Assembly: GCA_000724175.1 (NCBI GenBank)
Contig: JPGV01000025.1
Coordinates: 62,001 to 126,000 of the forward strand
Reading direction: 5' to 3'
DNA: 64,000 bases
Origin: [Candidatus Thermochlorobacteriaceae] bacterium GBChlB
Lineage (GTDB): Bacteria > Bacteroidota > Chlorobiia > Chlorobiales > Thermochlorobacteraceae
This document shows, in pieces, positions 59,507 to 61,899 of the stretch. The translations under genes and the position numbers were made by a program. Below the pieces are notes generated by a model, which searched no databases, had not been told where the DNA came from, and worked only from the letters and a program-made list of their open reading frames with translations. How positions within the stretch are numbered: position 1 is the first letter of the stretch; the number at the start of each line of letters is the position of its first letter.

Positions 59507-59544
59507 AGCGATGTATCTTGAAAAAAGTTGACACAAAAACAACA

Positions 59545-60048
59545 ATGAAAAAAATACTCTGCTGCGCGCTCGTCTTCGTCGCTGTGGCTGGTTGCGACCG
59601 ATTGAAAAACAACAGCAACCCGCCGCCGATGAGTGGCCCGACGACAGCTACAAAAAAAACGGAAATGCGCGGCTTGAAACGCAAACTCAAAATCGATACG
59701 GCAATCGTCTGGGTCGATATCGCCGATAAAGACCAAACGCGGGCGCAAGGGCTAATGTATCGGCGTGAAATGCCCGACGACGAGGGCATGCTCTTTGTCT
59801 TCCCGCAGCCCGATAAACAGTCGTTTTGGATGAAGAACACGTATCTGCCGCTCGACATTGCCTTCGTCGATGAACAACTGCGCATCACCGACATTCACCA
59901 GATGAAACCGATGGGAGACTCAAACGAGCCAGATGATAAACTTCCGCGCTACGAATCGTCAAAACCGGTGCCGTATGCGATTGAACTCAATCAAGGCTGG
60001 TTCAAGAAAAAAGGCATCGCGGTCGGCGCAAAAATCTCGTTTGAGTAA
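59545..60048 (+). CDS. DUF192 lipoprotein
   Basis: 167 residues from ATG 59545, which starts a lipoprotein signal ending VAGC (Cys17); an in-frame TTG at 59518 would add nine residues before it. The DUF192 domain (~58-160) shows QGLMYRREMPDDEGMLFVF, SFWMKNTYLPLDIAFVD and YAIELNQGWF. The family is an envelope beta-barrel domain of unknown job. It is convergent with the RidA gene, 23 bases apart. Confidence 0.92.
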   Translation: MKKILCCALVFVAVAGCDRLKNNSNPPPMSGPTTATKKTEMRGLKRKLKIDTAIVWVDIADKDQTRAQGLMYRREMPDDEGMLFVFPQPDKQSFWMKNTYLPLDIAFVDEQLRITDIHQMKPMGDSNEPDDKLPRYESSKPVPYAIELNQGWFKKKGIAVGAKISFE

Positions 60049-60071
60049 TGTCGTGATTTGCCCAGCGCTGT

Positions 60072-60668
60072 TTATGGTTTAAGAGACACAACGACTTCAA
60101 CTTCGACGCTGGCGCCGAGCGGCAATTCGGCGACACCAACCGCGCTACGAGCATGCCGGCCGTTTTCGCCGAAGACATCGTTGAAAAAATCTGATGCGCC
60201 GTTGCCGACAAACGGCTGTTCGGTAAATCCCGATTCGCTGGCAACAAACACCGTTAGCTTTACCACGCGCTCGATTTTATCCAAATCGCCGATGAGCTGA
60301 CGAATAGCCGCCAGCGCGTTAATGGCACAAACTCTCGCCGCCGCCTTTGCTTCCTCTTTACCGACAATCATGCCCACTTTGCCTTTGCCGCCCTGAATCA
60401 ACTGCCCATCGACGAGTGGCAGCTGCCCAGATGTAAAAACCAAGTTTCCCGTTTGAACGGCAGGAATGTAGGCGGCAAGCGGCTTTGAAGGCACCGGCAG
60501 CGTAACGCCGAGCGAGAGTAATCGTTGTTCAACAGTCGACATGGGTTTAGTTGGTTTGGTTTGAGAAACGCCTTGAACGGCAAACAACATTGGCAATGCA
60601 AGATACAGCAGCGCTGTCAAAACGGCGAAACGGACACGCCGGAATTGAGCGAAGAAAATGTGACGCAT
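60072..60668 (-). CDS. RidA-family protein with apparent signal peptide
   Basis: 198 residues. The RidA/YjgF-like domain (~43-198) has YIPAVQTGNLVFTSGQLP, AAARVCAINALAAIRQL and GVAELPLGASVEVEVVV; this trimeric family in the YjgH-like branch often deaminates reactive enamines/imines or has no known substrate. Residues 1-42 form a basic start plus hydrophobic helix (FAVLTALLYLALPMLFAVQG), so export is predicted from ATG 60668. If the true start is the internal ATG 60542, the protein is cytoplasmic as usual. No partner gene nearby. Confidence 0.85.
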   Translation of the reverse strand: MRHIFFAQFRRVRFAVLTALLYLALPMLFAVQGVSQTKPTKPMSTVEQRLLSLGVTLPVPSKPLAAYIPAVQTGNLVFTSGQLPLVDGQLIQGGKGKVGMIVGKEEAKAAARVCAINALAAIRQLIGDLDKIERVVKLTVFVASESGFTEQPFVGNGASDFFNDVFGENGRHARSAVGVAELPLGASVEVEVVVSLKP

Positions 60669-60717
60669 ACATTAAAAAGTTAAAGGTTATGTATCAAGGG
60701 TGAGTTGACGGTGAAAC

Positions 60718-60769
60718 GCCGTCAGCACAGCCGAACAATGGATTGCGTCGCTACGCTCGCAATGACGGC
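60718..60769. repeat. REP-like palindromic element
   Basis: Outer arms GCCGTCA (60718-60724) and TGACGGC (60763-60769), inner arms ATTGCG and CGCAAT around TCGCTACGCT. The inner wording is typical of dispersed intergenic repeats in many bacteria. It sits between the start of the RidA gene and the small-RNA candidate. Confidence 0.65.
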
Positions 60770-60897
60770 TTGTCATAACGAAGAGGCGCGCCGCGACTGA
60801 CACCACCACCAGACAGGCTAAAGAGCGCAACACACGTTGAATCCACGACCAAGTTAAACGAAAATAATTGTGATGTGGCGCAAGATAACCGCTAAAC

Positions 60898-60929
60898 TTG
60901 TAACCGCTTGTCTCGAATGTTCGTATAAT
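60898..60929 (+). promoter_or_regulatory. Promoter of the small-RNA candidate
   Basis: A perfect TATAAT at 60924-60929, seven bases before the proposed 5' end at 60936. The only upstream match to a -35 box is TTGTAA (60898-60903) at the wide spacing of 20, so the -35 part is uncertain. Confidence 0.55.
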
Positions 60930-60935
60930 TCAGGC

Positions 60936-61032
60936 GAGAAGGAAAAAACCTTCTCCGTAGTCATGGTTACGCGATGATATACGATGATTGAGCAAGCGCG
61001 GCGGTTGAAACTCAACCGCCGCTTTGTTTTTC
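60936..61032 (+). ncRNA. Predicted small RNA
   Basis: About 97 nt. A 5' hairpin GAGAAGG-AAAAAA-CCTTCTC (60936-60955) is followed by a ~40-base open linker rich in A and U, and a 3' intrinsic terminator of 11 base pairs with U-tract (60998-61032). A -10 box TATAAT ends seven bases before the hairpin. No protein gene on the plus strand precedes it, since the RidA gene is transcribed away. This build is typical of trans-acting sRNAs, but it could also be the leader of the response-regulator gene with an attenuator. No known RNA family was recognised. Confidence 0.55.
60998..61032 (+). terminator. Strong intrinsic terminator
   Basis: GCGGCGGTTGA and TCAACCGCCGC pair over 11 bases with a three-base loop, followed by TTTGTTTTT. 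It ends the small-RNA candidate. Confidence 0.92.
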
Positions 61033-61043
61033 TGAACTGCCCT

Positions 61044-61088
61044 GCAATTTTTTTCTGCTTTCTTCAATACGCCGCAATTTTTTTCTGC
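61044..61088. repeat. Two 15-base direct repeats, 30 bases apart
   Basis: GCAATTTTTTTCTGC occurs at 61044-61058 and again at 61074-61088, exact copies with a period of 30 bases, about three helical turns. They lie 89-133 bases upstream of the response-regulator start and could be a pair of protein-binding sites. Confidence 0.7.
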
Positions 61089-61176
61089 GCCTGTGGTTAT
61101 ATTGCCTGCCGTGCGTGGCAATGCTGTTCCGCCGCGCTAAGTTGCCGAGGTCGCTCCAAATCAAGTTCACAGAGTT

Positions 61177-61899
61177 ATGACGAATTTTGCCCTAAAAACA
61201 TCGTCGGCGGAAAAGCCACAAAAAGTTTTGTTGGTCGATGATGACGACGCGATTCTACGTGCCACGTCGCACCAACTCACGCTCAACGGCTACGACGTCG
61301 TAACTGCAATGGACGCCGAAGAAGCCGAACAGGTCATTCTGGAAGATGGTATCGAAATCGTCATTTGCGACTTTGCCATGCCGGGCTTGAACGGTTTGGA
61401 GTTCTGCCAAAAATTGCGCAATCGGCCAGAGACGCGCTCGATTTACTTCATCATGTTCACTGGCTACGGCAAAAACGACGAGAAAATTCAGGCGCTCAAG
61501 TCGGGCGTTGATGACTACATTACCAAATCCTTCGACCCAGCTGAATTGGTCGCCCGTGTTCATGTGGCGCAGCGCATTGTGGAATTGCAGCGTCAAGTCG
61601 TGCGGCTCGAGCGCATGCAAACCTATTCGGAACTCATCACAACATTGGCGCACGAAATCAACAATCCGCTCACAGGGCTTTTGGGCTTTCTCGAGCTGGC
61701 AAAAATCAAACTCAAACGTGTGCCGCTCAGCGAGGCGGACGTCGAGAAAATCGTTCAGATGTTGGAACGCACACATGAGCAAGGCAAGCGCATTGGCGTT
61801 GTCGTCGAAAGGCTCTTAAACCTGAAAGACTACAAAACCAAGACCTATTTGGAAACCGTGCGTATGATTGACATTGACACGCCGTCTCCTGAAAATTAA
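61177..61899 (+). CDS. Response regulator fused to a histidine-kinase DHp domain (no ATPase)
   Basis: 240 residues. A REC domain (~15-130) with the acidic pair VDDDD, phospho-acceptor Asp65 in VICDFAMPG, and Lys in DDYITKSF. A helical linker (QRIVELQRQVVRLERMQTYS) leads to a HisKA-like dimerisation helix with His159 in LAHEINNPLTGLLGFLEL, then a second helix to residue ~220. No HATPase domain follows, so it cannot phosphorylate itself. It could act as a phosphotransfer partner or dimer for another kinase, perhaps the hybrid kinase at 19375. The prenyltransferase gene starts 31 bases later. Confidence 0.88.
   Translation: MTNFALKTSSAEKPQKVLLVDDDDAILRATSHQLTLNGYDVVTAMDAEEAEQVILEDGIEIVICDFAMPGLNGLEFCQKLRNRPETRSIYFIMFTGYGKNDEKIQALKSGVDDYITKSFDPAELVARVHVAQRIVELQRQVVRLERMQTYSELITTLAHEINNPLTGLLGFLELAKIKLKRVPLSEADVEKIVQMLERTHEQGKRIGVVVERLLNLKDYKTKTYLETVRMIDIDTPSPEN

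Follow-up and report, generated by a model that had tools for sequence, protein, structure and literature searches.

A candidate structured small RNA with an orphan terminator in an intergenic gap of a Chlorobiales genome

Between two genes of a Chlorobiales genome (3.05 Mb), whose relatives comprise one order with four families, lies a gap in which hairpins are followed by a strong intrinsic terminator. The question is what this gap encodes. It is part of a stretch of 64,000 nt, called the window here, and is flanked by the following genes:

60072 to 60668, minus strand: gene of a RidA/YjgF family protein, divergent, upstream (Pfam PF14588/PF01042)
61177 to 61899, plus strand: gene of a response regulator receiver + HisKA domain protein, downstream (Pfam PF00072, PF00512)

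The gap probably encodes a non-coding RNA of about 95–125 bases. Our best reading, to which we give roughly an even chance, is a stand-alone intergenic structured small RNA (sRNA) of ~95 nt (start at 60936) or ~125 nt (start at ~60905), ending at the terminator at 60998–61031. This reading is preferred because the fold is strong, the strong terminator is of a rare kind with no same-strand gene upstream, and no Rfam family is matched. On these grounds a terminator-ended, stand-alone sRNA, as proposed by a sequence-only reading of this DNA, still stands, while the promoter and open-linker arguments then brought forward for it do not. The plus strand is free of coding genes from 60048 to 60998, in agreement with the earlier statement that no coding gene precedes the candidate on its strand. 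The small open reading frames of the candidate region are either of only 4–5 codons or, in one case, read through the terminator.

The gap also holds repeated sequences. Positions 60685–60850, intergenic and upstream of ridA on ridA's strand, carry one copy of a repeat that is dispersed in this genome (core CATTGCGAGCGTAGCGACGCAATCCATTG...CACCGTCAAC). This copy stops short of the RNA candidate; other copies or parts of the repeat occur in L148, L154, L146, L139, L152, L141, L150, and L159, at ~8 per 450 kb. Between the candidate's terminator and the response-regulator gene, the 15-nt sequence GCAATTTTTTTCTGC is found as identical direct repeats at 61044–61058 and 61074–61088, 30 nt apart, and GCAATTTTTTT, which resembles it, lies upstream of the response-regulator orthologue in L040.

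From position 60936 onward, the candidate consists of the following elements:

60936 to 60955, plus strand: stem-loop 1, 7 bp with an A6 loop (folding, −8.9 kcal/mol alone)
60956 to 60983, plus strand: stem-loop 2 (folding, −8.8 kcal/mol alone)
60984 to 60997, plus strand: short connector AUGAUUGAGCAAGC (pair probabilities, folds)
60998 to 61031, plus strand: intrinsic terminator, perfect 11-bp stem, AAC loop, TTTGTTTTT (−19.9 kcal/mol alone)

The terminator is as first described, an 11-bp hairpin with a U-tract: the perfect stem GCGGCGGTTGA/TCAACCGCCGC occupies 60998–61022 and is followed by TTTGTTTTT. A simple scan of 464 kb (20 genome stretches plus the window) looked for perfectly paired stems, ≥8 bp long, with a T-tract; the resulting background rates are estimates from ~15% of the genome (a 400-kb sample of stretches and the window). 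The scan returned 15 strong terminators, of which about half lie 20–50 nt past the end of a same-strand gene and another follows a tRNA. For the candidate's terminator (61008), the nearest same-strand gene end is 959 nt away. Terminators of this strength are rare in the genome, and no same-strand gene ends in the 950 nt upstream of this one, so the element is best read as giving a short transcript of its own. When the genome sample was screened with the orphan-terminator criterion, L150:15401 was flagged too; this is a known Chlorobi-1 sRNA and serves as a positive control. On its own, the criterion lacks specificity, since there are other orphans, L148:11609 and L148:14076 (minus strand). These are strong terminator-like hairpins with no same-strand gene end nearby, which could belong to further small RNAs or to small genes missing from the annotation. 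Given such orphan hairpins with T-tracts in the sample, the candidate element is not unique in kind.

Upstream of the terminator, reading and folding both recover the claimed 7-bp hairpin with its A6 loop (GAGAAGG-AAAAAA-CCTTCTC, 60936–60955). The region behind it had been taken for an open, A/U-rich linker; its measured G+C content is 45%, and it is mostly a second hairpin that had been missed, the first 28 nt (60956–60983) forming stem-loop 2, most stem bases of which are paired with a probability >0.9. In the short form, the first 6 nt of the connector are single-stranded; the remainder is paired, either to the U-tract or (long form) to 60906–60916. The short unit (105 nt) folds with an MFE of −45.7 kcal/mol and a z-score of −7.95, a value equalled by none of 200 shuffles.

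Where the RNA begins depends on which of the following upstream elements is used:

60868 to 60900, plus strand: candidate promoter of the Bacteroidota/Chlorobiota type, TTGTGATG ... TAAACTTG (score 3.3)
60906 to 60916, plus strand: putative closing stem P1, 5′ strand GCUUG.CUCGA, complementary to 60988–60997
60924 to 60929, plus strand: TATAAT, the −10 box of the sequence-only reading, with a start at 60936 if used (poor match to the genome's promoters)

The 17 tRNA promoters of this genome are of the Bacteroidota type and all have in common TTG-N19/20-TAnnTTTGC(AGCCC) or near variants of it. A count over 36.5 kb of sequence upstream of genes gave 22 occurrences of TAnnTTTGC and 10 of the spaced pair TTG-N19/20-TAnnTTTG; the reversed control gave 6 and 0, respectively. 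The corresponding counts for TATAAT are 2 and 4, i.e., this box is not enriched upstream of genes. When sites were ranked by a two-box score, the tRNA promoters obtained 10.5–27.9, the site at 60893 obtained 3.3 (~0.4 such sites are expected by chance in the gap), the Chlorobi-1 promoter 2.6, and the TATAAT site −4.4. The TATAAT sequence is indeed present at 60924–60929, but it is not credible as a housekeeping promoter. The argument built on it was unsound because it relied on an E. coli-type consensus that the tRNA promoters of this lineage do not use, and start sites in this lineage should not be called from TATAAT boxes of the E. coli type. Consequently, although a stem begins at 60936, the 5′ end at this position is uncertain and ~60905 rivals it. 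The latter start is predicted from TAAACTTG (60893–60900), the −7 box of the candidate promoter, since the −7 box spans −12 to −5 in a Bacteroidota species (PMC9723704). Both predicted starts, 60905 and 60936, fall at the beginning of a stem. As for a promoter of its own, the candidate has the weak site at 60893 and a TATAAT that is not of the genome's type, and the strong consensus is unmatched.

A start near 60905 would yield a structured RNA of ~125 nt, in which both stem-loops sit inside P1, with the terminator immediately behind. This longer RNA, which we regard as possible and still short of probable, is a variant of our preferred reading with another start site and another working part: it would act like the Chlorobi-1 RNA, as a compact structured sRNA, and not through an open linker. 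P1 (GCUUG.CUCGA/UUGAGCAAGC) exists only if transcription begins near 60905. Its complementarity is matched by 31 of 50000 shuffles when measured by alignment (p ~6e-4) and by 191 of 20000 when measured by duplex energy (p ~0.01), but by as many as 235 of 2000 when the 5′ part is shuffled and the MFE of the whole fold is compared (p ~0.12). The long form folds at −54.0 vs. −45.1 kcal/mol, and the z-score of its fold (127 nt) is −6.28. The Chlorobi-1 RNA of the same genome has the same fold topology, with a closing stem that likewise begins at the inferred +1, and the score of the promoter candidate at 60893 is no lower than that of the Chlorobi-1 promoter. On the other hand, P1 was read post hoc, a score like that at 60893 is expected ~0.4 times by chance in the gap, and the relatives are without a match to the covariance model of the long form (R2).

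The terminator could also end plus-strand transcription of another origin. Such transcripts could come from the DUF192 gene by read-through, running antisense to ridA, or could be spurious antisense products; hairpin 1 would then be incidental. We consider this unlikely. The DUF192 gene (59518–60048) is convergent with ridA and has no strong terminator of its own, but its read-through would require a 950-nt untranslated antisense extension across ridA and a repeat. Furthermore, the whole 95-nt unit is structured and not the terminator alone: when the latter is left out, 60936–60997 has a z-score of −3.77, equalled by 1 of 200 shuffles.

Another function for the same elements, offered as an alternative in the sequence-only reading, is that of a leader or attenuator of the response-regulator gene, in which the terminator would halt transcription unless a signal permits read-through. 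Leader terminators are common, the gene lies on the same strand, and ~150 nt separate the terminator from its start codon. Nevertheless, we find this distinctly improbable. Folding reveals no antiterminator, the 5′ arm pairing weakly once the 3′ arm of the terminator is removed, and the element is upstream of the response-regulator orthologue in 0 of 11 relatives, in several of which a thyX-like gene (named from sequence) abuts the orthologue. The best Rfam match, to L20_leader, is a chance one (17.2 bits against a cut-off of 58.7). Moreover, the response-regulator gene may have a promoter of its own past the terminator:

61098 to 61105, plus strand: TATATTGC, possible separate promoter box of the response-regulator gene, of the TAnnTTGY type

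A motif of this type has been described as SM5 (PMC9723704).

The earlier remark that no known family was recognised is borne out, as Rfam searches at gathering and at permissive thresholds gave chance matches only. Homologues were sought in several ways. BLAST of the locus against 60 relatives (same family and order, none of the same genus) gave no homologue; the best match, a 30-nt one in G027 (E 2.4e-4) that covers TATAATTCAGGC and the A-rich start, stops before the hairpins and was rejected. No homologue was found by DNA similarity search in the genome itself and in plasmids, no match to the exact linker pattern in viral contigs, and a search of genome contigs with the response-regulator protein led to no homologue of the element. 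The RidA and response-regulator neighbourhoods of the relatives do not contain it. Covariance models of the short form (R1) and the long form (R2) gave chance matches only, the best in relatives reaching 21.2 and 17.7 bits (E 0.2–0.7 per genome over 40–61 genomes). With no homologue in the 60 relatives, covariation speaks neither for nor against any of the stems. The lack of a conserved stem and linker in these genomes, named in the sequence-only reading as an observation that would refute the candidate, refutes an order-wide family and not the RNA itself, which appears to be confined to this genome or shared only with close relatives outside the 60 compared. Judged from its sequence, the element is plausibly an ordinary, genome-specific small-RNA candidate that is probably transcribed.

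The closest parallel in the genome is the Chlorobi-1 RNA. The locus L150:15401 is conserved in the family and matches the Rfam model with 36.7 bits (E 5e-7; gathering score 50), and a family search found Chlorobi-1 at E <1e-3 in 14 of 15 genomes. Searching the whole genome with RF01696 gave one match, at C7:35405-35471, elsewhere than the candidate; there was none in the window at the gathering score and none in 60600–61250 at E up to 10. Upstream of the candidate, 60896–60930 resembles the region upstream of the genome's Chlorobi-1 gene (35-nt alignment, equalled by 11 of 20000 shuffles), and the string common to both occurs at only two places in the genome, the search pattern having been written from these two. 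That the candidate is a divergent Chlorobi-1 paralogue is barely credible: despite the similar topology (two hairpins, closing stem, terminator) and upstream sequences, the conserved Chlorobi-1 loops ACGCC and UGGGGG are both absent from 60896–61035, so the candidate is not a member, and the single RF01696 match lies elsewhere.

Some observations concern Chlorobi-1 itself. L150:15375-15640 (G000:C7:35375-35640, minus strand) is a Chlorobi-1 RNA below the Rfam gathering score. Copies occur in most relatives of the order, some in tandem, and several have a closing stem and a terminator outside the Rfam model; the Rfam cut-off seems too strict in families f1–f3. Arrays of short, weak Chlorobi-1 matches ~60 nt apart, at G014:C22:50768-52552 and G013:C44:6411-6837, probably represent CRISPR repeats whose small hairpin is similar. 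A SAM-Chlorobi RNA (RF01724) is present at L139:19546-19627 with 48.2 bits, above its cut-off. That Chlorobi-1 and SAM-Chlorobi RNAs occur throughout the family agrees with the order being Chlorobiales.

What could the stand-alone sRNA do? Transcribed from 60936 or ~60905 and released at the terminator, it would be a trans-acting RNA whose pairing segment, the connector together with the 3′ side of stem-loop 2 (60970–60992), presumably binds the translation start regions of mRNAs without Hfq, as GibS does in Bacteroides. Hfq-independent antisense regulation would be the likeliest function. A search that responds in 5 of 14 control genomes did not find Hfq in this one. Titration of CsrA was rejected on sequence grounds, there being one GGA only, half of it inside a stem. 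In a target search around gene starts, the linker's strongest antisense match was to the start region of the NAD-isocitrate dehydrogenase gene (TIGR00175 above cut-off), with a predicted pairing of −37.4 kcal/mol over about codons 2–9. Shuffled linkers reach this energy in 3 of 34,110 pairs, which corresponds to 0.24 expected over ~2,700 genes (gene number estimated). The pairing is not significant and is a lead, not a result; in the predicted folds, stem-loop 2, the extended terminator or P1 already takes up the greater part of the segment that would pair. The most specific proposal, a genus-specific Chlorobiales sRNA with Chlorobi-1-like topology, and perhaps promoter control, that represses NAD-isocitrate dehydrogenase over its start codon without Hfq, is in our view highly doubtful; if true, it would link an sRNA to the TCA cycle in Chlorobiales. 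If transcribed at all, the candidate would add one more sRNA to a phylum with very few known, and the genome would have a second hairpin-hairpin-terminator RNA beside Chlorobi-1.

Compared with known systems, the candidate has features of three. Bacteroides has no obvious Hfq or ProQ and yet possesses trans-acting sRNAs, among them GibS, which regulates by pairing with start-codon regions (PMC7366714). Like such sRNAs, the candidate is intergenic, has its own terminator, and belongs to a lineage apparently without Hfq; its pairing with start-codon regions is a proposal. GibS has a long, unstructured 5′ seed that is conserved in the genus and has been tested, whereas the candidate is highly structured, unconserved, and predicted only. 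With attenuators based on intrinsic terminators, such as the L20 leader (RF00558), it shares hairpins and a terminator upstream of a same-strand gene, but it lacks an antiterminator and conservation upstream of orthologues, and its Rfam score is far below the cut-off. Finally, the Chlorobi-1 RNA (RF01696), an sRNA of Chlorobi, is likewise intergenic and consists of two adjacent hairpins followed by an intrinsic terminator; the long form of the candidate would gain a closing stem as well, and similar sequence lies upstream of both in the same genome. The candidate differs in its loops, and whereas Chlorobi-1 spans the order, the candidate is found in one genome only.
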